A stretch of 10,907 bases of DNA from an uncultured Porticoccus sp. (GTDB lineage: Bacteria > Pseudomonadota > Gammaproteobacteria > Pseudomonadales > Porticoccaceae), in contig CATLZI010000053.1 of the NCBI GenBank assembly GCA_950063125.1, forward strand, positions 1-10,907, read 5' to 3'. Of this stretch, positions 920-10,907 are shown piece by piece. The notes under the pieces are model-generated. The model saw only the letters and a program-made list of their open reading frames with translations, made no database searches and was not told the origin of the DNA. The translations under genes and the position numbers were made by a program. How positions within the stretch are numbered: the first letter of the stretch is position 1; each line of letters opens with the position of its first letter.

Positions 920-1978
920 ATGTCCGCCAGCCACACCACAGATATCCGCCATGACTGGAGCCGTAAGGAGGTCTTGGCGCTGTTCAATCAGCCCTTTAAT
1001 GACCTGATGTTTCAGGCGCAGGTGGTGCACCGTCAGCATTTCAATCCCAACGAAGTGCAACTCAGCACATTGCTCTCGATCAAAACCGGTGCCTGCCCGG
1101 AGGACTGTAAATATTGTCCGCAAAGTGCCCGCTACGATACGGGTCTCGAGAAGGAGAAACTGCTGGCTGTAGAGCAGGTGATCGAGGAGGCAAAAGCCGC
1201 CCGGGCGAGCGGGGCCACCCGTTTCTGTATGGGGGCTGCCTGGCGATCGCCAAAAGACAAGGATATGCCCGTGGTGGCCGAGATGGTTCGTCAGGTCAAG
1301 GCGCTCGGTCTGGAAACCTGCATGACCCTGGGTATGCTGGAGGCAGAGCAGGCCCGGCTACTGGCCGACGCAGGTCTGGATTATTACAACCACAACCTTG
1401 ATACGTCTCCGGAATATTACGGCGAAATCATCACCACGCGCACCTATGAGGATCGTCTGAACACTCTGGACAATGTGCGCCAGGCAGGCATGAAAGTCTG
1501 TGCAGGGGGCATCGTCGGTATGGGTGAGGGGGAAAAAGACCGGGCGGGACTGTTGATGCAGTTGGCCAATCTTTCCCATCATCCGGAGTCGGTGCCTATC
1601 AATATGCTGGTGAAAGTGGCGGGTACTCCTCTGGACAGTCAGGAGGACCTGGATCCCTTCGATTTTCTTCGCACGATTGCGGTAGCCCGTATCCTGATGC
1701 CCAAATCCCACGTGCGGCTGTCCGCTGGCCGCGAGGAGATGAATGACCAGATGCAGGCGCTCGCCTTTATGGCGGGTGCCAACTCCATTTTCTACTGCGA
1801 AAAGTTGCTCACCACCCCCAACCCCAAGGCCAACAGTGACATGCAGCTGCTCAGCCGTCTCGGTATCCAGCCTGAAACACACCGGGTTGAGCGGGACAGC
1901 CTCGAGGAAGAGCGGGCTTTGCAGCGGGCAATAGCCGAGGTGGAGACAGACCACCTGTTCTACAACGCCGTGAATTAG
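920..1978 (+). CDS. bioB: Biotin synthase
   Basis: Radical-SAM enzyme that inserts sulfur into dethiobiotin, the last step of biotin synthesis. It has 352 residues. The 4Fe-4S/SAM motif CPEDCKYC gives Cys59, Cys63 and Cys66. The auxiliary 2Fe-2S ligands are also present: Cys103 (RFCMGAAW), Cys134 (LETCMTLGM), Cys194 (VCAGG) and Arg266 (VRLSAGRE). Each lies six positions after its E. coli counterpart, so the enzyme looks complete and active. The ATG follows a weak GAGAG ribosome binding site. It is the first gene after the BirA-controlled promoter, with bioF 79 nt downstream and probably on the same transcript. The BioB N-terminus varies, so the start is likely but not proven. Confidence 0.98.
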
Positions 1979-2057
1979 ACGCTCTCTACATCCGCAGTAT
2001 TTTTATCACAGATCATCGCCGGAGCAGTGGATTCGCTTACCCGGAGGGAAGGGTCAG

Positions 2058-3248
2058 ATGACATCATCCATGGACCAGGTGTTACAGGCGCGACTGGATC
2101 AGCGTCAGATTGACAACCTGTATCGCCGTCGACACCTGTTGCAGTCGGCTCAAAACAGTATTGTGCAGGTGGACGGCAAAACCTGCGTGGCCTTTTGCAG
2201 CAATGATTATCTGGGACTGGCCAGTCACCCGGCTGTGATCGACAGCATGCGACGCGGTGTCGAAACCTACGGGGTCGGCAGTGGTGCCTCGCATCTGGTT
2301 TACGGCCACTCCCAGGAGCATCATGCCCTGGAGGAAGAACTGGCTGCGTTTACCGGCCGGCCCCGGGCGCTGTTGTTTTCCACCGGCTACATGGCCAATC
2401 TGGGTGCTATCCGGGCTTTGGTAGACAAGGGCGATCACGTCTACCAGGATCGCCTTAACCACGCGTCCCTGCTGGATGGCGGATTGGCCAGCAATGCCCC
2501 CTGTCAGCGCTATCGACATGCCGATGTCGGCGACCTCACCCGGCGACTTTGCAAGGCAGAACAGGGCCGAAAACTGGTGGTTACCGATGGTGTGTTCAGC
2601 ATGGATGGGGATCTGGCGCCGCTGCCAGCGTTGGCCCGGGCCTGCGCCGAACAGGGTGGCTGGCTGATGGTGGATGATGCTCACGGTTTTGGTGTGCTGG
2701 GAAAAAACGGCGGTGGTCTGGCAGAGTATTATGGGCTTGATGTCACCGATGTGCCGGTGCTGATAGGAACGCTGGGCAAAGCGTTTGGTACCTTCGGTGC
2801 TTTTGTGGCCGGTTCCGATGCCCTGATCGAAACCCTGATCCAGTATGCCCGCACCTACATTTATACCCCCGCATTGCCTCCCTCCGTGGCAGCGGCCACT
2901 CGCATCAGTCTGAAAATACTGCGCCGGGAAACCTGGCGCCGGGAAAGACTGATCAGCCTGATCGAACGGTTCAGGGCGGGGATCGGCGAACTCGGGCTGG
3001 AGTTGTTGAATTCACCGACGCCCATCCAACCGGTCATGTTGCATGATGACGCGCTCTGTTACCGGGTGGGCGAGGGGCTGCGTGCCAGGGGTTTTCTGGT
3101 GGGTGCGATCCGTTCTCCCACTGTTCCTGTGGGCAGTGCAAGATTGCGCATAACCCTCTGTGCCGAGCACACCGACGATCAGGTGGATGCGCTGGTTGAG
3201 GCGATTGGTAAGACTGTGGCGGAAGTCGGGGAAATTCACAGGGAATAG
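2058..3248 (+). CDS. bioF: 8-amino-7-oxononanoate synthase
   Basis: PLP-dependent alpha-oxoamine synthase that condenses pimeloyl-ACP (or pimeloyl-CoA) with L-alanine to give 8-amino-7-oxononanoate, the first step of biotin ring assembly. The 396 residues match the family length. Visible motifs are SNDYLGLA (48-55), [11 protein letters not shown] (74-84), the PLP-contacting VDDAHGFG with Asp206 and His209, and the PLP-Schiff-base lysine Lys241 in [13 protein letters not shown]. The ATG at 2058 has a strong purine-rich ribosome binding site (GGAGGGAAGGG); a second in-frame ATG four codons in is less well placed. In many pseudomonads bioH and bioC follow bioF, but here the next gene is bioD. 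Confidence 0.98.
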
Positions 3249-3340
3249 GTTGTGTTTTCTCGCAGCCTGTAAAAATGTCTGGGAAGTGCAAGTTCAATGG
3301 CGGGCAACCCGGGAGATCGTTTAGGTTGGTACAACGTGCA

Positions 3341-4051
3341 ATGGTTAAACGATTTTTTGTGACAGGCACCAATACCGGTGTTGGCAAAACCCTGATCAGT
3401 ACCGCGTTGCTGGCTACGGCCCGCGACAGCGGATTGACTACTGTCGGGTTGAAACCGGTGGCTGCCGGGTGTGAGGTCACAGATGAGGGGCTCCGCAATG
3501 CCGATGCCCTTTCGTTGCTGGCCCAGTCGAGTCTGCCGTTGTCCTATGAAGAGGTAAACCCGGTGGCACTGGCGCCTGCGATTGCACCGCACATTGCCGC
3601 TGCAGAAGCCGGTCGTCGGCTGAGTGCCGAGCGGCTGGCGGGGTTCTGCCGGGGCATTATGCTGCAACCGGTGGACCTTTTGCTGATTGAGGGTGCGGGT
3701 GGTTGGCGAGTGCCCCTGAACGAGCGGGAAACGTTCGCTGACCTGGCCAAAACTCTGCAGTTGCCGGTGATTCTGGTGGTGGCGATGGAGCTGGGCTGTA
3801 TCAATCACGCATTGCTTTCGGCTGAGGCGATCCAGCGTGACGGGCTGAAGATGGCAGGTTGGGTCGCCAACCAGGTTTGTCCTGAGCAAATGGGCCGCTA
3901 CCATGAGACCCTAGCGAGCTTGCAAGCGCGATTGCCATGCCCCATGATCGGTGCAGTACCATGGTTGTCGAACCCGACCCCGGAACAGGCAAAGCCATTC
4001 CTGAAACCGGAGTTTTTGACGGCAAAAAACCAATTAACCAGTGGTGAATAA
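3341..4051 (+). CDS. bioD: Dethiobiotin synthetase
   Basis: ATP-dependent enzyme that closes the ureido ring of 7,8-diaminononanoate with CO2 to make dethiobiotin, the substrate of BioB. From this start it has 236 residues. It begins with the P-loop GTNTGVGKT (9-17), then the substrate lysine Lys38 in GLKPVAAG, the metal-binding Asp55 in RNADAL, and EGAGG (117-121). The frame stays open back to an ATG at 3275, which would add 22 residues. I chose 3341 because BioD proteins normally begin a few residues before FFVTGT, and neither start has a strong ribosome binding site. bioA is not in the window. The gene stops 3 nt before the next one, so the two are probably co-translated. Confidence 0.96.
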   Translation: MVKRFFVTGTNTGVGKTLISTALLATARDSGLTTVGLKPVAAGCEVTDEGLRNADALSLLAQSSLPLSYEEVNPVALAPAIAPHIAAAEAGRRLSAERLAGFCRGIMLQPVDLLLIEGAGGWRVPLNERETFADLAKTLQLPVILVVAMELGCINHALLSAEAIQRDGLKMAGWVANQVCPEQMGRYHETLASLQARLPCPMIGAVPWLSNPTPEQAKPFLKPEFLTAKNQLTSGE

Positions 4052-4807: not shown

Positions 4808-5821
4808 TCAGACGTCTTTGACCCGGACCATCAGTTTGCCGGTATTTTCACCGGTATACAGTTTCTTGACGGCCTGCAGGGCGGTTTCCAGACCCTCGGA
4901 CACATCCAGGCGAGCCTTGAGTCTGCCTTCCTTCATCCAGCCAATCAGTGCCTCGGTCGCTTCCGGGTAGCGATCCATGTAGTCCAGGATGATGAAGCCC
5001 TGAATCTTCAGGCGATGCATCAGAATCAGGTCATAGTTGTAAGGGCCGGGTACCGATTCAGTGGCATTGTACTGGGAGATCAGGCCGCAGGTGGGGATAC
5101 GGCCATGCAGGTTCATCTGCTTGAGACATTCGTCGAGGATCTTGCCACCGACGTTGTCAAAATAGACGTCGATGCCGTTTGGGCAAGTCTTGGCGAGCGC
5201 CTCTGCGACATTTTCGGTTTTGTAGTTAATGGCCGCATCAAAGCCGAGCTCTCGGGTAATCCACTGACATTTCTCATCTGAGCCGGTCAGTCCAACCACA
5301 TGGCATCCCTTGATCTTGGCGATCTGACCAACGAGGCATCCGACAGCGCCTGCCGCCGTGGAGACGACCACGGTTTCACCGGGTTGTGGGTCGCCGATCT
5401 CCAGCAGACAGAAATAGGCGGTGGGGCCAACCAGCGCCAGTGTGCCAAAAGCATCAATGACTGGCACATCGCCAACTTCGCCCAGCAGGCCAACGGTGGC
5501 TGGTGAGCCGATCTGGTAATCCGCCCAGCTGCCGATGCCGCTGACAATATCGCCGGCCTTGAACTCGGGGGTATTACTTTTGATGACGGTGCCGCAGACC
5601 ACGCCGCGCATCGGGGCGTTGATCGCCACCGGTTCCATATACTGCTCCATGTCGCTCATCCAGATCCGATTGGTGGGATCCAGTGACAGGTAGTTGAGAC
5701 GAAACAGGCACTCGCCCTCACCGGGCTCCGGAATGGCTTCCTGCTCAAGGCTCAATACATCATCGGTAATCTCTCCGACAGGACGCTTGCGCAAACGCCA
5801 TACTCGATTGGTGTCTGACAT
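4808..5821 (-). CDS. NADPH-dependent zinc-independent MDR oxidoreductase (CurA/LTB4DH-like)
   Basis: A 337-residue medium-chain reductase of the prostaglandin reductase/LTB4 12-hydroxydehydrogenase group, which reduces the C=C bond of alpha,beta-unsaturated aldehydes and ketones with NADPH. Features are LSLDPTNR (46-53), GPTAYFCLLEIG (132-143), the cofactor-binding AAGAVGCLVGQIAK (156-169) and DVYFDNVGG (218-226). The catalytic zinc ligands of alcohol dehydrogenases are absent, as is normal for this group. The frame stays open eight codons further upstream, but I chose the internal ATG because AAGGAG lies 9-10 nt before it. The gene stands alone, with about 100 nt on each side. A detoxifying role is inferred from the family; the physiological substrate is unknown. 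Confidence 0.93.
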   Translation of the reverse strand: MSDTNRVWRLRKRPVGEITDDVLSLEQEAIPEPGEGECLFRLNYLSLDPTNRIWMSDMEQYMEPVAINAPMRGVVCGTVIKSNTPEFKAGDIVSGIGSWADYQIGSPATVGLLGEVGDVPVIDAFGTLALVGPTAYFCLLEIGDPQPGETVVVSTAAGAVGCLVGQIAKIKGCHVVGLTGSDEKCQWITRELGFDAAINYKTENVAEALAKTCPNGIDVYFDNVGGKILDECLKQMNLHGRIPTCGLISQYNATESVPGPYNYDLILMHRLKIQGFIILDYMDRYPEATEALIGWMKEGRLKARLDVSEGLETALQAVKKLYTGENTGKLMVRVKDV

Positions 5822-5920
5822 GGTGTTGTTCTCCTTATTTGTCATCGTGAAGTGGATCGGCTCTGCGTTTCTTGCTATGGATTTTTAGGCCCGGCCTGCT
5901 GGTTGTAGGCAGCCCCAAGG

Positions 5921-6412
5921 TTAGCTGATAAAAAAAACATCGTACTTGACGTATCCTTCGGGTCCAAACTGGATTTCCGTCATCTTGTTAATGCACTGAA
6001 TATCGTTGAGCCAGGCGTATTTCTCCGCCGAGGTCTGAAAGGTGGGCGCGGCGATAAAGTAGGGGATATCCTTATCAGTCAGCAACTCGCCATTGCTGAG
6101 CCGCTCTGCACTCTCGGAGGAGTTTTTGATAATACCGTTGTAGCTCATATAAATATGGGCACCATCATCTGTTTCGATCAGTCCCCTCACATCCAGCCGG
6201 AAAGTACCACTTGGCATAATGCGCAGCCAGTCGGCACCGGGCGCAATGAACTGGCCATTGATGTCAGGGCCCCTGACCCAGCCGCCGGGACGCACATTGA
6301 CAACCATCAGTCCCGTATCAATCGATACGGGCGGATCGAGCGGTGCCAGATAGGTCATGATGTATTGGGTGGTCAGGTGGGTACTGGGTTGCGGATTGTC
6401 GTGCAGGGCCAT
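5921..6412 (-). CDS. DUF3237 domain-containing protein
   Basis: A 163-residue protein matching the small beta-barrel-like DUF3237 family (UPF0311) along its length. Recognisable stretches are VRGPDINGQFIAPGADWLRI (46-65), FRLDVRGLIETDDGAHIYMSYNG (71-93), YFIAAPTFQTSAEKYAWLND (118-137) and YVKYDVFFIS at the C-terminus. The function of the family is unknown. There is no signal peptide, so it is presumably cytoplasmic. I chose the ATG at 6412, behind a purine-rich AGAGAGAG; a GTG 15 codons upstream has no ribosome binding site and adds residues not expected for the family. It points the same way as the reductase but is about 100 nt away, so co-transcription is uncertain. Confidence 0.88.
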   Translation of the reverse strand: MALHDNPQPSTHLTTQYIMTYLAPLDPPVSIDTGLMVVNVRPGGWVRGPDINGQFIAPGADWLRIMPSGTFRLDVRGLIETDDGAHIYMSYNGIIKNSSESAERLSNGELLTDKDIPYFIAAPTFQTSAEKYAWLNDIQCINKMTEIQFGPEGYVKYDVFFIS

Positions 6413-6470
6413 CAGTAAACTCTCTCTCTGACAATGCAGTTTATTGGTATCGGTCACCGCCGTGATGTTG

Positions 6471-6632
6471 CTTCAGGCCACTTTTTCTGTCGATAGGCGG
6501 CCGAAGTTAACGCACGGATAACCATTCAATGCTTTCGCGGGACGGTGCCTGAGCATTCAGCATCCTAGCGGTTTTTGAATGCTTAGTACAGTAAGTCGCC
6601 GTGCTGGTTGAGCAGTGCTCTGGACCGGCGAC
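6471..6632. repeat. Intergenic region with three inverted repeats
   Basis: The 248 nt between the 62-codon gene and the DUF3237 gene hold no convincing coding sequence. Three hairpins can be drawn. The first pairs CTTCAGGCC with GGCCGAAG (6471-6479/6499-6506; one bulged A, 19-nt loop). The second pairs CTGAGCATTCA with TGAATGCTTAG (6549-6559/6576-6586; ten Watson-Crick pairs and one G-U as + strand RNA, 16-nt loop). The third pairs GTCGCCG with CGGCGAC (6595-6601/6626-6632), enclosing a smaller GAGC/GCTC stem. None has a following T run, so they are not textbook terminators. They may end the upstream operon in a factor-dependent way, control the DUF3237 gene, or be remnants of a repeat. Confidence 0.5.
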
Positions 6633-6660
6633 AGAGGCGTGCCTAGAGAAAGAGATGGGC

Positions 6661-6849
6661 CTAGAAAAAATCGAGATCACTGTTCAAGACAATTTGTTCC
6701 AGACAAATAGTCTGGTCGTCAGTCTCCGGGTGATCTGTCTGCCACTGGCGGGGGATAGGTGTGTAGTGAATCACTTCCGGTGATGCAGTGTGTTTGGGAA
6801 TCGCCGGTTTTGGCAATATTCTGATAGGTTCTCTGTGGTTCAGGTTCAT
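6661..6849 (-). CDS. Small hypothetical protein (62 aa)
   Basis: I do not recognise this 62-residue product. It begins MNLNHREPIRIL, is rich in proline, histidine and threonine, has no membrane segment or signal peptide, and ends in the acidic/aromatic tail SDLDFF. The coding call rests mainly on the start: AAGGAGG lies 5 nt before the ATG, the best ribosome binding site in the window. The frame is open further upstream, to 7005, but that extension would overlap the metalloprotease gene and is unlikely. It sits 79 nt after the M48 gene on the same strand, so it may be the last gene of that operon. It looks less GC-rich than its neighbours. An opposite-strand frame here lacks a ribosome binding site. 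Confidence 0.6.
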   Translation of the reverse strand: MNLNHREPIRILPKPAIPKHTASPEVIHYTPIPRQWQTDHPETDDQTICLEQIVLNSDLDFF

Positions 6850-6928
6850 GGCTACCTCCTTGATGACCAGTCCAGTGTGACGGCTCAGCATGAAAGTGTG
6901 ATGGCAGTAACATGACAACGAGCCAGTT

Positions 6929-8356
6929 CTAACGAATGATTTTGATCCACTCGCCGGGCTTCGGTTCCCCAACCGGGTAATAATTATTGATGATGCGCAA
7001 CTCATCCTCCCCGTACTGCCCCAGTTTCAGGTGTTGGGCCAGCAGGGCAAACGTGCTGTTTTTGGTGGCTTTTACGTAGTGAATATTCTTTGTTTCAGTG
7101 GCCTGCAGGCTGCGTTTTGAGACGGGTCGAAAGCTGCCAATAATGTCCATGAATTGCCGGTTGCCCAGTGACTGGTCGGCACGGGGCTCCAGTGTTCCCC
7201 GGAAGACAAAGGCGTGGTAACCGTAGTAGATCACCGCCAGTCTTTGGTCCGGTTGTCCCTGTGTGCCCGGTATCAGGCCGGTATGACCCTGAAGGCGGAA
7301 CTGGGTGAGGGGCTCAGACTGTTTGAGCAGGGTAATCCCCAGCTGTTGTTTGATGAACCGGTCCGGGCTGGCTCTGGTGCGATTCATCGCCGTTACCGCG
7401 AGTTTGGCATTGCCGGAGTCGTTGCGGGCGTTGACCAGTGGCGATTGTTCGCTGAATTGCCAGTCTTTGGGGAAATACATCATAAAGGCCAGCTCTTCAT
7501 TCAGGTAGGCGTTCTCCGGCAGTCGTCGCGTTGCAACATTTTCACCCCAGACCATGCCATCAGTGGCAATACGAAAGGGCGTGACATTGTGTTCAACCTT
7601 CATGCCATTCGGCATCGATCCTGCGTTGCTGACCACTTCCCGCAGTCTCTGATCATTCCGGGGATGGGTGGCAAACAGGCCGTGGTAGGTTTGTGGTTCC
7701 CGGCCCGACTCCAGGGCACGTTTTTTTTCCAGCCGTTCGTGATCTTTCAGCATGGTGATCACCTCAATCATGGCCTGGGGGTCATAACCGGACTTGTACA
7801 GGTAGCGGCTACCGATTTCATCAGCTTCAAGCTCCATATCCCGCCCGTAACCACTGACCATGGACGCGCCCCACATTGCACTGGCCTGCCCCACTTCCAT
7901 ACTCCGGGTGAGAATGGCGAGCAGTCCCGCAACGAATTTTGAGCCGGTCTGGGCCCGCTTCTGGCGAGCGTGATGTCCGGCGGTGACGTGGCCGATTTCA
8001 TGGGCCAGCACGGCTGCCAGCTGGGCTTCGGAGTTGAGGTAGCCAATCAGGCCGCGGTGGATATAAATATAGCCGTCCGGCAGGGCAAATGCATTGATAT
8101 CGGGGTTGTCGATGACGGTGAACGTGAATGACTCCCCGGCCTGATCCGAGTGGCGGACAATGCGCTGACCAATCTGGTCGACATAGTCAGCCAGTTTGCC
8201 CTCCACCAGTGGCATATTGGCGATGATCTCGCTGTGCATTTCCTCGGGCGTTTCCGGGGGCTTGCCCGCAGCCATCGCAGCGCAACAGCAACTCAGCAGT
8301 GCTATCAACAGCAGCACTCGGTATTGCGGTAAACCCTGTGGCATGGCAAAGATCAC
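6929..8356 (-). CDS. Exported M48 family zinc metalloprotease with LysM-like C-terminus
   Basis: A 475-residue BepA/YfgC-type peptidase. Residues 10-30 are a hydrophobic export signal; either signal peptidase I cuts after Ala27-Met28-Ala29, or LLSC (20-23) serves as an imperfect lipobox. The catalytic motif HEIGH (119-123) supplies two zinc ligands and Glu120. ELEADEIG (175-182) gives the third ligand, Glu175, and FATHPRNDQR (228-237) holds the conserved His231. Instead of BepA's TPR region there is a mixed domain and a LysM-like tail (about 425-475), including LRIINNYYPVGEPKPGEWIKII. It should act in the periplasm, probably on misassembled envelope proteins. The GTG start overlaps the upstream stop as GTGA; an ATG four codons in is possible. 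Confidence 0.93.
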   Translation of the reverse strand: MIFAMPQGLPQYRVLLLIALLSCCCAAMAAGKPPETPEEMHSEIIANMPLVEGKLADYVDQIGQRIVRHSDQAGESFTFTVIDNPDINAFALPDGYIYIHRGLIGYLNSEAQLAAVLAHEIGHVTAGHHARQKRAQTGSKFVAGLLAILTRSMEVGQASAMWGASMVSGYGRDMELEADEIGSRYLYKSGYDPQAMIEVITMLKDHERLEKKRALESGREPQTYHGLFATHPRNDQRLREVVSNAGSMPNGMKVEHNVTPFRIATDGMVWGENVATRRLPENAYLNEELAFMMYFPKDWQFSEQSPLVNARNDSGNAKLAVTAMNRTRASPDRFIKQQLGITLLKQSEPLTQFRLQGHTGLIPGTQGQPDQRLAVIYYGYHAFVFRGTLEPRADQSLGNRQFMDIIGSFRPVSKRSLQATETKNIHYVKATKNSTFALLAQHLKLGQYGEDELRIINNYYPVGEPKPGEWIKIIR

Positions 8357-9027
8357 GGGCTGCCAGGACCCGCCGGGGCAAAAAAGCTCTGGAGTCGGGT
8401 GCCGATCCCTTCGCAGGCCTCACCCTGAACCCTGGCGATAAAGGGGATTGGTGCACCCACCGCCAGCAAATACGATGAACCCTTGCTGTCTACCTGCACC
8501 CGCCCCTTTTCTCCCAGTTTGCCGAGGTCCCAGATAATCGCTTCATAATTGGCGGCCTTGTCCCAAGAGGAAAAACCAAAGCAGCCACCGCCCCCGGGGG
8601 CGACAGCGCAGCTGATGGCACCACTTTTTTCTGTGGTCTCGATATTGCCGTCCACCCAGATCATGTAGCGAATACCCAGTTCGCGAACCCGCTTGCCGAT
8701 CAGTGGATCCTCCAGCATGCCACCCATACGTTTTAGCCCGAGTGGTGCCATGCGCGGTTCAAACCAGGGGTAGAAACTGTCGAGAAACTGTTGCTCCGGC
8801 ATGACTGACAACTGCCCCCGAGTGGCGAGTTTGTTACCGATACAGTTGATGAAGTCCGGATCGGTTTCATAGGCGCCGCTGTGTCGTCGCCCGACCACCA
8901 CCACTTTCTCGTCGCTATTCAGCGGCAACAGGGTACTGGATGGACGAAATTCGTCGACCCGGGTGGACGTGCCACAGGCACTGGTCGCGAGCATGCACAA
9001 CAGGAGCCATGGGAGCGCACCTCTCAC
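8353..9027 (-). CDS. Putative lipoprotein, unknown family
   Basis: A 224-residue product I cannot assign to a named family. From the GTG at 9027 it opens with a compact lipoprotein signal (MRGALPWLLLCMLATSAC), with the lipidated cysteine at residue 18 in TSAC. A longer frame back to 9078 would add 17 charged residues before the signal, so I prefer the GTG, which has GAGG 8 nt upstream and overlaps the previous stop as GTGA. Four other cysteines (62, 140, 149, 205) could form two disulfides in the periplasm. A glycine-rich patch APGGGGCFGF (143-152) lies next to one pair. The +2 residue is glycine, so outer-membrane sorting is expected. The stop overlaps the M48 start, indicating translational coupling and a shared process. 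Confidence 0.82.
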   Translation of the reverse strand: MRGALPWLLLCMLATSACGTSTRVDEFRPSSTLLPLNSDEKVVVVGRRHSGAYETDPDFINCIGNKLATRGQLSVMPEQQFLDSFYPWFEPRMAPLGLKRMGGMLEDPLIGKRVRELGIRYMIWVDGNIETTEKSGAISCAVAPGGGGCFGFSSWDKAANYEAIIWDLGKLGEKGRVQVDSKGSSYLLAVGAPIPFIARVQGEACEGIGTRLQSFFAPAGPGSP

Positions 9028-9704
9028 CGTTCTGTCCTCTGGCTCAATTTGGCGGGCGCTTGACGGTTGGCCAGCCACTGGCGAATTTCCGGTATTTGCT
9101 GAAAGCCGGTCAACAGCCGTGCCCCCGCATCTCGCAGGGCCATCACGGTGGCCTGATTGAGTGCCTCTTCATCCGACTTGAGGAAGCGGCTCTGGGTTTT
9201 ACCATAGGCGCTCATCATCCAGTCTGCGACAGGCTGGCCATTGCCGTCGTAGACTTTCAGGTTGTATTTCAGCCACACCTCGTAGACGTTCAACTGGGTC
9301 TCCATGGGTGTGGCCAGCTGTACTTCTGTGATTTCGGGTACGATCATCAAATCCAGGGTGTTCTGGCCGGTGGGCAGGGTTTTCAGGGTCGCGCTGCTCT
9401 GAAACATATCGGTGAACACCCGATTGAAGAGTTGTACCTGGGATTCCCCCAATGCCATGGTGACCGGTTGCCGGTTATCTTTCTCACTGGTAAAACGATA
9501 ACTGTTGAAGCTGTCATTGAGAACCAGGCCCACGCTGAGGGGCTGTCGGGCAACCAGCGCGGAGGGGTAATCACCATTGACCGTGACATTGGTGCTGCAA
9601 CCGATCAACAGGGTGATTACCGCGACAATTGGCAGTAGACGCAGATGGCTCAGTAGCTGCGAAGTCCGGCAATACGCATTAATTGACACTTGGGGTTTGG
9701 TCAT
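9024..9704 (-). CDS. Putative outer-membrane lipoprotein, unknown family
   Basis: A 226-residue protein with a basic N-terminus, a hydrophobic stretch at 22-35 and a perfect lipobox LIGC (33-36). The mature protein starts CSTNVTVNGDYPS, and serine at +2 predicts transfer to the outer membrane by Lol. The body alternates beta-like segments (PLSVGLVLNDSF, DLMIVPEITEVQL, VWLKYNLKVYDGNG) with a helix around FNRVFTDMF and a helical C-terminus. This broadly recalls YajG- or DUF330-type auxiliary lipoproteins, but I cannot confirm a family. The ATG lies 3 nt after the stop of the VWA gene, and the TGA overlaps the GTG of the next lipoprotein gene. It probably anchors or scaffolds the operon's envelope complex. 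Confidence 0.82.
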   Translation of the reverse strand: MTKPQVSINAYCRTSQLLSHLRLLPIVAVITLLIGCSTNVTVNGDYPSALVARQPLSVGLVLNDSFNSYRFTSEKDNRQPVTMALGESQVQLFNRVFTDMFQSSATLKTLPTGQNTLDLMIVPEITEVQLATPMETQLNVYEVWLKYNLKVYDGNGQPVADWMMSAYGKTQSRFLKSDEEALNQATVMALRDAGARLLTGFQQIPEIRQWLANRQAPAKLSQRTER

Positions 9705-9707
9705 AGA

Positions 9708-10715
9708 TCACTCAGGTTTGAGGCCGTTCAGCCCGACAAAAGTTCCTCCGTTACGATAGCTCAGGTCGCGCATCAGCGCAGCAAATCTCGACGCCGTCTG
9801 CAGATTGCCACCCTTGACCATGAAATGTACCGGGAAACCGATCGTATGGATACGAACCAGTTGCTGTCCACTGCGCCCCTCCCGGTTGATTTTCTCGACA
9901 CTGCTCAGGACCTCCGCTATGGACTGCCCGGTGAAATCGTCACCCAGCACATAGAGACTGATCTTCCGGTCCGGCGCATAGAACCGGCGAATCGCATGCT
10001 GCACGCCCTCCACCGGGCTAGAGTTGCTGAAGGGCGTCCAGCTGGCCAGCCGGTCGATAATCGCCTTGCGCCGGGCCGGTGTGTCGGGAATCCATTTGTC
10101 GCGATAGGTGGAGAACATGTAGCCCCCCATGTCGTTCATCACCTGGATGCCTTTTACCCTCGGATAGATATTGAGAATGTTGATCATTTCCTGGCGCAGT
10201 CGTGGCCAGGCAAAATTGAACATGCTGCCAGAGGTGTCGATGATGAAAACGATGTATTCGCTGTCCACCGGTATACCGCCAATCAATGATCGTTTATCGG
10301 GCGTCTGTCGGGCTTTTAAGCGTGCCATTTCCTCCGTAAGCACCTGCAGGGCCAGTGTCAGCTTATCCTGTTCGGTGGTATCCGATTGTGCCACGGCATC
10401 CCGCTGTCGGCGAACGCTGGCCAGCTCGGACTGCAACCGGGCGATGCGTTGGCGAATATCGGAGAGTTGTTCCTCCTTGGATAGCAGATCGCGATTCAAA
10501 ATGCGGGCTTCTCCGCGTATCTCGAAGACCTGCTGCTGTAATTCGGCCACGCTGCCTTCCGCCGGTTGCACCGAGTCCTCAAAAGCCGTCGAGTCGACGG
10601 TTTTGGCGATCAGCAATAACAGCACAATCGCGCCGAACCCGCAGCTGATGACATCCAGGAAGGAAATGCTGATCTCGGCTGTATTACCCCGCTCTTTGCG
10701 CCGGCGGATACTCAT
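9708..10715 (-). CDS. Membrane-anchored VWA domain protein with ExbD/TolR-like N-terminal helix
   Basis: A 335-residue protein with a short basic cytoplasmic N-terminus, one membrane helix (about 18-37), a coiled coil (about 54-138) and a periplasmic von Willebrand A domain (about 152-330). The MIDAS metal site is visible: DTSGS (160-164), a serine-rich second loop NSSPVEG (231-237) and LGDDFTG (257-263) for the third. The segment EISISFLDVISCG aligns by eye with the EINVTPFIDVM region of ExbD, placing Asp21 at the position of the proton-conducting aspartate of ExbD/TolR/MotB. This suggests work with an ExbB/MotA-type channel, not seen in the window. The ATG has GAGGGA about 8 nt upstream and overlaps the previous gene as ATGA. 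Confidence 0.88.
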   Translation of the reverse strand: MSIRRRKERGNTAEISISFLDVISCGFGAIVLLLLIAKTVDSTAFEDSVQPAEGSVAELQQQVFEIRGEARILNRDLLSKEEQLSDIRQRIARLQSELASVRRQRDAVAQSDTTEQDKLTLALQVLTEEMARLKARQTPDKRSLIGGIPVDSEYIVFIIDTSGSMFNFAWPRLRQEMINILNIYPRVKGIQVMNDMGGYMFSTYRDKWIPDTPARRKAIIDRLASWTPFSNSSPVEGVQHAIRRFYAPDRKISLYVLGDDFTGQSIAEVLSSVEKINREGRSGQQLVRIHTIGFPVHFMVKGGNLQTASRFAALMRDLSYRNGGTFVGLNGLKPE

Positions 10716-10907
10716 GGCCAGTCCCTCGAAGGGCTCATGAAAGAGCCCTGGCTGGACAGGGCCAGTTGCCAGAAACTGGCAGCCGCCATGGGGTCACCTT
10801 CCATCGGAAACAGCAGAATATTGACCGGCAGGCGACGGGGTAACATCTGTGTGGCCTCGGCAAACAGCTTCAGGCGATCCCGCCCAGTGATGGTTTTGAA
10901 CCCCGAG
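10712..10907 (-). CDS. C-terminus of a probable VWA domain protein (partial)
   Basis: Only the last 64 codons lie in the window; the gene continues past the right edge. The frame ends in TGA overlapping the ATG of the next gene (ATGA). The segment includes GFKTITGRDRLKLFAEA, RLPVNILLFPMEGDP, ASFWQLALSSQGSF and the tail SPSRDWP. The order hydrophobic strand, FP, small spacer, A..F..LA, G-[ST]-F also occurs at the end of the neighbouring VWA protein (IHTIGFPV, SRFAALMRD, NGGTFVGLN). I therefore infer a second VWA protein, probably a tandem paralogue. The reading frame is certain from the context; the family call is an inference from a short segment. Confidence 0.72.
   Translation of the reverse strand, partial: SGFKTITGRDRLKLFAEATQMLPRRLPVNILLFPMEGDPMAAASFWQLALSSQGSFMSPSRDWP

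Follow-up and report, generated by a model that had tools for sequence, protein, structure and literature searches.

Distal genes of a conserved thirteen-gene operon in an uncultured Porticoccus, probably encoding a proton-driven trans-envelope machine with paired VWA proteins

The stretch of DNA analysed here (the window) is contig C53 (CATLZI010000053.1; 10,907 bases), one of 330 contigs in a draft genome of an uncultured Porticoccus sp. that is 78.5% complete. Its minus strand carries, from 10907 to 6929, the end of a gene for a protein with a VWA domain (VWA1), which is cut by the contig end, and complete genes for a second VWA protein (VWA2), two lipoproteins (LP1 and LP2) and an M48 metalloprotease. 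We read this region, with a probability of about 0.72, as the distal portion of an operon of 13 genes that encodes a trans-envelope machine, one that is driven by the proton motive force (PMF) and has a client at the outer membrane. The nearest named relatives of the window are the metagenome-assembled Porticoccus genomes with loci L003 and L004, in which the identity of VWA2 is 100% after rounding. The features of the region are as follows.

10712-10907, minus strand: C-terminal 64 residues of VWA1, the gene being truncated at 10907, where the contig stops
9708-10715, minus strand: VWA2, 335 amino acids, paralogue of VWA1, with an ExbD/TolR-like trans-pore helix (by motif and position), a coiled coil and a periplasmic VWA domain
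10605-10664, minus strand: membrane helix of VWA2 with the SFLDxxxCGFGA motif, helix limits judged by eye
10655-10653, minus strand: codon of VWA2 Asp21, candidate proton carrier on the basis of its conservation
10224-10238, minus strand: DxSxS motif of VWA2 (Asp160-Ser164), a metal-site motif of the metal ion-dependent adhesion site (MIDAS) type, from counts in the D, S and S columns
9024-9704, minus strand: LP1, outer-membrane-type lipoprotein with a predicted fold of the PqiC/HpaA/LptE/CsgG class
8353-9027, minus strand: LP2, outer-membrane-type lipoprotein with a predicted fold of the PelC/TolB-N/CsgG class
6929-8356, minus strand: M48 metalloprotease (Pfam PF01435), 475 amino acids, exported (signal judged by eye), accessory
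7988-8002, minus strand: HExxH zinc-binding motif (HEIGH) of the M48 protease, from column conservation
6661-6849, minus strand: open reading frame (ORF) of 62 amino acids, a doubtful gene, full-length in near relatives only

The five longer genes are tightly packed. VWA1 and VWA2 overlap in ATGA (10715-10712), a spacer of 3 nucleotides (9707-9705) separates VWA2 from LP1, and GTGA overlaps join LP1 to LP2 (9027-9024) and LP2 to the protease gene (8356-8353); the start of LP2 was taken as the GTG at 9027 and not as the longer ORF start at 9078. These junctions, read from the sequence, agree with those of an earlier prediction made for this DNA from its letters alone (the original prediction). 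On 6400-10907, promoter-like motifs numbered 4 against 2.5 +/- 1.7 in shuffled sequences and terminator-like motifs 3 against 4.7 +/- 2.5; since neither count differs clearly from the shuffles, the scan neither supports nor breaks a single transcript.

Comparison with relatives places these five genes at the 3' end of an operon of thirteen genes. In G435, a close Porticoccus relative, the operon measures about 14.4 kb and lies at 767-15175 of the reversed locus L089. The order of the thirteen genes there is g0, g1, LP0, a TPR protein, a PEGA and pseudo-FGE protein (g4), g5, the motor subunit, g7, VWA1, VWA2, LP1, LP2 and the M48 protease; they overlap or sit at most some 20 bases apart, with about 70 nucleotides between g5 and the motor gene, and an opposite-strand ORF precedes g0. 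In the loci L004, L016 (Exilibacterium) and L028 (Pseudohongiella) the upstream genes on the same strand encode a complete VWA1, g7, a MotA/TolQ/ExbB protein, g5, a protein with four PEGA domains and an FGE domain, a membrane TPR protein and LP0, and the low-complexity protein g1 follows further upstream in L004 and L028. Parts of the same set were found in the window's own genome. Contig C191 carries the end of g1, LP0, the TPR gene and residues 1-463 of the PEGA-FGE protein, and contig C268 carries the last 38 residues of the PEGA-FGE protein, the motor gene, g7 and, at the contig end, a VWA1-like N-terminal part; from the gene order of L004, C268 probably adjoins C53. The ExbB, MotA or TolQ gene that the original prediction expected beyond the contig end is thus present, both upstream in relatives and on C268.

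The motor subunit has a Pfam match to MotA_ExbB (3.1e-15) and a weak one to solved TolQ (0.02). Its residues T189 and T222, at channel positions, are conserved in 52/52 sequences and in all 99 distinct sequences of an enlarged set, so that, by sequence columns, it has the conserved Thr of motors that combine TolQ with a vWA pair. At E 1e-30 the subunit is represented by at least 8000 protein clusters (90% identity) in public data. A TolQ/ExbB-like gene stands beside the vWA genes in 40 of 43 loci fetched from the order, the other three being cut by contig ends, and visual inspection of the operons in L004, L016 and L028 showed no tolR or exbD gene. A different position of the motor gene, after VWA2 rather than upstream of g7, was observed in L045, L046, L050 and L057.

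An alignment of VWA1 with VWA2 over 176 columns has 30% identity (E 2e-15), and the two are paralogues. In both, a short N-terminus is followed by a helix of the type SFLD..CGFGA, a coiled coil and the VWA domain. The complete VWA1 homologue of L004 has 354 amino acids, with an N-terminal ExbD-like helix ahead of the coiled coil and the VWA domain. The helix Asp is present in 107/107 distinct sequences of VWA1 and 111/112 of VWA2 (59/60 in a smaller VWA2 set), and DxSxS in 108/108 and 113/113 (D, S and S each 61/61 in the smaller set). The Pfam VWA match of VWA2 is weak and under the cut-off (E 0.065), and that of the complete VWA1 from L004 scores 26.9 against a cut-off of 27 bits. The ExbD-like anchor of the original prediction gains support from the helix motif, its position and the near-invariant Asp, and we regard the helix of both proteins as a putative ExbD/TolR-like anchor. 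Two further observations concern VWA2. In L019 its gene (9001-10115) is about 110 bases longer and is matched in two open frames, reflecting either an interruption or an assembly error, and two genomes of one genus (G459, contig C60, and G509, contig C5) hold a second, divergent VWA2 (E 1.7e-79 and 1.1e-78) that is immediately preceded by a VWA1-type match.

The association of these genes was examined in an evenly drawn sample of 194 genomes of the order, with thresholds of E 1e-10 for VWA2, 1e-6 for LP1 and 1e-10 for LP2. VWA2 was found in 44, LP1 in 44 and LP2 in 41 of these genomes; the VWA2 and LP1 sets are identical (194/194 agree) and the LP2 set is nested inside. At these thresholds LP1 and LP2 were not found in the other 150 genomes, where scoring was confined to the 14 or 15 best first-look candidates of each genome and weak lipoprotein homologues could hide. 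Fisher tests, uncorrected for descent, gave p values of 1e-44 for VWA2 with LP1 and 7e-39 for VWA2 with LP2 by genome, and of 4e-22 and 1e-18 by genus. In the three carriers negative for LP2 (G468, G530 and G537) the contig ends 87, 2 and 441 bases past LP1, and G537 also belongs to a genus in which LP2 sits elsewhere. The original prediction had named a rare joint occurrence of these genes as what would speak against it; instead, LP1 accompanies VWA2 in 44/44 and LP2 in 41/44 of the VWA2-positive genomes.

Gene order was followed in 43 fetched loci, which are all carriers of the order except the window. The operon genes that are present keep one order and strand in 43/43 loci, so the association goes beyond chance. 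VWA1, VWA2 and LP1 are present in all 43, the motor subunit and g7 in 40, the TPR and PEGA-FGE genes in 38, g5 in 36, LP2 in 35, g1 and LP0 in 33 and M48 in 28; gaps in the core are contig ends, except for g7 and g5 in L125 and g5 in L117. LP1 lies within 900 nucleotides of VWA2, by ORF limits, in 41/43 loci, and LP2 follows LP1 in 36 of the 41 LP2-positive genomes, the window included. Five genomes of one genus (L126-L130) have LP2 on another contig, with M48 adjoining in 5/5. M48 adjoins LP2 in 34/41 LP2-positive genomes (28/35 loci, the five moved pairs and the window), which makes the protease a non-obligate component of the machine.

Beyond the order the picture changes. Among 229 genomes of the class, 14 have a full-length VWA2 and 16 have VWA1-type matches only; the LP1/LP2 pair lies on another contig in G167, and LP2 lies upstream of g1 in G017. 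Among 150 genomes of the phylum VWA2 was found in 9, 7 of them from one family. In a set of 60 loci, truncated contigs included, the motor gene is present in 52, LP1 in 29, LP2 in 28 and M48 in 23. The core has a wide and patchy distribution, and LP1, LP2 and M48 look like a lineage module depending on it, a reading that follows from their co-occurrence with the core within the order and their absence from many core operons beyond.

The Cys at the lipobox position is invariant in LP1 (72/72 distinct sequences) and LP2 (70/70), and it is on these column counts, for LP1 and LP2 only, that our lipoprotein call relies; a crude lipobox pattern matched g1 in 8/63, LP0 in 56/78, LP1 in 65/72, LP2 in 60/69 and M48 in 23/56 sequences. 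Neither LP1 nor LP2 has a Pfam or NCBIfam match at E 1, and profile searches of LP0, LP1 and LP2 against solved structures gave nothing useful. Structure prediction gives LP1 a fold of the PqiC/HpaA/LptE/CsgG class and LP2 a fold of the PelC/TolB-N/CsgG class that includes a long beta hairpin; LP2 has four other invariant Cys as well. Both are predicted members of the PelC/PqiC/CsgG/TolB-N class of lipoprotein folds. Aligned with each other by hhalign, they reach 41% probability and E 0.00028 over 51 columns only, and we claim a shared fold class alone. The protease matches Pfam Peptidase_M48 (8.8e-36), and the H, E and H of its HExxH motif and the downstream Glu are intact in 57/57 sequences.

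Of the upstream proteins, g0 was found as a 33-locus cluster in a search for further conserved neighbours; its member in L069, an opposite-strand ORF, is regarded as spurious. The g0 protein combines TPRs with a signal-like N-terminus (by eye) and, at its C-terminal end, a TonB-like domain: a profile of 31 members matches TonB 2k9k (E 2.5e-13), and Pfam TonB_C is found in 22/31 members (best 9.3e-12; the G435 member scores 22.1 against a cut-off of 24.6 bits). The protein g1 is of low complexity and lipoprotein-like (in L087, 759-2303, very long Ser/Gln runs and a conserved C-terminus, DDDxVARQIREAA, were observed), LP0 is a lipoprotein, the next gene encodes a membrane-anchored TPR protein and g5 is a small exported protein. 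The membrane-anchored g4, whose anchor is of inner-membrane type by eye, has in its FGE domain no invariant Cys among the members aligned (19 of the 50 found), for which reason we call it pseudo-FGE and rejected it as a catalytic FGE. In bacterial FGE-domain proteins of an extended type the catalytic cysteines are described as missing (PMC5915273). The protein g7 is cytoplasmic and weakly Hsp70-like (SSB1, E 0.0019 for the whole chain and 0.12 for the best stretch).

Gene content, conservation, co-occurrence and the predicted folds of LP1 and LP2 all favour the original proposal of one trans-envelope machine, and this machine appears to span inner to outer membrane in many marine bacteria. A TolQ-like pentamer would surround two different N-terminal helices, those of VWA1 and VWA2, and proton flow past the helix Asp residues would turn or pull a heterodimeric VWA1/VWA2 axle. 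Through the coiled coils the motion would reach a pair of periplasmic VWA domains of the MIDAS type, and these may grip partners, namely the TPR protein, the PEGA-FGE protein, g0 and finally an outer-membrane assembly of LP1 and LP2, where the M48 protease may clear or trim the client. The PMF drive and the quality-control role of the original prediction are hypothetical, and topology (by eye), stoichiometry, rotation, contacts and client are inferred. The best reading of the client is one at the outer membrane, with assembly, secretion or turnover of envelope proteins as the task. A stronger claim, which we put forward tentatively and consider less likely than not as a whole, is that of a distinct class of rotary machine in Pseudomonadota with a type IX-like architecture. 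In it, a TolQ-like pentamer would turn an obligate VWA heterodimer axle, and TPR, PEGA-pseudoFGE and TonB_C proteins would link this motor with a ring of LP1 and LP2 in the outer membrane and a dedicated protease.

Several results weigh against the reading as a PMF-driven trans-envelope machine. A profile of VWA2 compared with one TolR gave a probability of 1%, which is not significant, and the ExbD likeness of the VWA helices rests for this reason on motif, position and a published AlphaFold 3 model. Profile searches of the PDB gave no solved VWA chain for VWA1 at E 0.01 and weak integrin matches only for VWA2 (E 0.46 and 0.5), and coiled coils dominate the match lists of both. M48 is not beside LP2 in 7/41 genomes, though 5.5-6.1 kb of contig remains there. 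In the class, 10 of the 14 VWA2-positive genomes are without LP1 and LP2 and 4 have both; G164 (87% complete) has weaker matches to LP1 and LP2 (E 1.2e-10 and 6.2e-34) and no VWA2, and G084 has a weak LP2 alone.

A more specific version of this reading, which we think unlikely, is a machine resembling type IX secretion or gliding, in which the motor would drive the rotation of a ring in the outer membrane and this ring would secrete or move surface proteins. With GldKLMN/PorKLMN, the type IX core, the operon has in common a motor, an axle (here dimeric) and a protein with the FGE fold of GldK/PorK (GldK 9.3e-31; PorK 1e-26), and the predicted folds of LP1 and LP2 come from a class that includes rings. 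However, true FGE enzymes outscore PorK and GldK, the best of the lipoproteins, in the PDB comparison of g4 (7e-32 vs about 1e-26), and the FGE domain sits here on a PEGA protein with an inner-membrane-type anchor and not on a lipoprotein. GldK is the best NCBIfam match of g4, with 107.5 bits against a cut-off of 350, and no GldL model is among the NCBIfam matches of the motor subunit. GldLM, thought to turn a GldK/N ring, is described as confined to Bacteroidetes (PMC9389320).

A still less probable alternative is that LP1, LP2 and M48 serve the ordinary maintenance of the outer membrane and have no more than a transcript in common with the motor operon. The relationship of M48 to proteases of the BepA/LoiP type would fit, as would the absence of LP1 and LP2 from many core operons and the ability of LP2 and M48 to relocate; set against this, the presence of LP1 and VWA2 coincides in every one of the 194 genomes, LP2 is kept in the same genomes even where it is located elsewhere, and G164 is the only one of the 229 class genomes with LP1 and LP2 but no VWA2. 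That the operon is this lineage's version of Tol-Pal we consider very improbable. Its TolQ-like motor, TonB_C domain, TPR proteins and TolB-N-like lipoprotein folds would be expected of such a version, but TolB is present in 186/194 genomes and coexists in 40/44 carriers, which largely refutes the idea and leads us to conclude that the machine is not Tol-Pal; the four carriers without TolB are drafts (G000 78.5%, G468 83%, G537 88% and G443 95% complete), and among the operon proteins scanned with Pfam there was no TolB beta-propeller or Pal family. Least probable of all is an anti-phage system of the Zorya kind, that is, a motor with a MotB-like protein. The motor superfamily is the same and ZorA models touch the motor subunit weakly (NCBIfam 12.2, PADLOC 13.8 bits), but the NCBIfam cut-off for ZorA is 500 bits, and a PADLOC scan of 10 of the proteins gave no convincing match (best E 0.0039, in a coiled-coil region), so that by NCBIfam and PADLOC the operon is not a Zorya system. 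Moreover, the make-up of the operon is constant within the order, and that of typical defence islands is not.

Among the known systems close to this one are ExbBD-TonB and TolQR-TolA, which share the motor superfamily, a TonB_C-type domain (here in g0) and the expected PMF drive. They differ in that VWA domains here replace the periplasmic domain of ExbD/TolR and the axle proteins are two different ones, and g0 brings TPRs and, by eye, a signal-like N-terminus. The partner genes of the gliding motor AglRQS differ from those here, and AglQ and AglS are not known to carry VWA domains. The likeness of this motor is that a single TolQ-like subunit is paired with axle-type subunits of two kinds (PMC9389320). 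LP1 and LP2 share predicted fold and lipid anchor with the class of PelC, PqiC, CsgG, TraT and TolB-N but have no useful sequence match to it, and the protease shares the M48 catalytic domain with BepA and LoiP but scores far below their cut-offs (129.2 against 570 bits for the BepA equivalog and 43.5 against 365 for LoiP).

A motor of TolQ with a heterologous vWA pair that supplies the trans-pore helices was proposed from Idiomarina homologues in 2025 in Mol Biol Evol (PMC12204202), and the core motor is therefore an already known prediction. The likeness is one of description: a TolQ-like gene, two different vWA proteins with a TolR-like helix and its Asp, a Thr ring and no SHLS motif in the helix. 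Section 8 of that paper treats the vWA-pair family without lipoproteins, PEGA-FGE, a TonB_C-TPR protein, an Hsp70-like protein or an M48 protease, and a TPR gene is mentioned there only for its other vWA family. The vWA-MoxR conflict systems, considered and rejected as a match, have PEGA and FGE-like domains in common with the operon, but TolQ, MotA and M48 are not mentioned in the accessible part of PMC7159879, and the make-up is different. The original statement that no named system has this make-up thus holds in part only, the motor having been described in 2025. For the operon as a whole no description was found in the literature examined (open-licence papers for the most part, no preprints), and no experiment on the motor subunit was found in the open-licence literature searched. 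What this analysis adds is the operon in full, together with its outer-membrane/protease module. The list of 5:2 motors would gain a proton-driven machine that has VWA grips and an axle of two different subunits, the system would test whether motor force assembles, secretes or removes outer-membrane proteins, and the co-inherited lipoproteins and protease offer a specific outer-membrane end to examine.

The 62-amino-acid ORF begins 79 nucleotides past the M48 stop. Full-length copies are confined to the nearest Porticoccus loci (L003; L004, of which L089 is the same contig; L005; L019), with at most a C-terminal remnant in L006 and L007, and there are few substitutions among relatives by which to judge coding. 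We therefore rejected it as a component of the system; counted originally as a sixth small gene, it is doubtful as a gene and probably lies outside the system. After the operon, window positions 4808-6457 (minus strand) hold a DUF3237 gene and an oxidoreductase-like ORF, with relatives of each in 11 loci, and positions 920-4051 hold bioB, bioF and bioD (by eye), with no counterpart of the alpha/beta-hydrolase-like ORF that occurs in this neighbourhood in related loci (a cluster of six loci). In G143, tolQRA-like ORFs (by eye; L063 546-2731, minus strand) lie downstream of the M48 gene, at a distance of about 4 kb. Upstream of the G435 operon, behind two opposite-strand ORFs, lies a gene for a MoxR-type AAA ATPase (by eye; L131 2436-3644, minus strand); MoxR proteins often act on VWA proteins.

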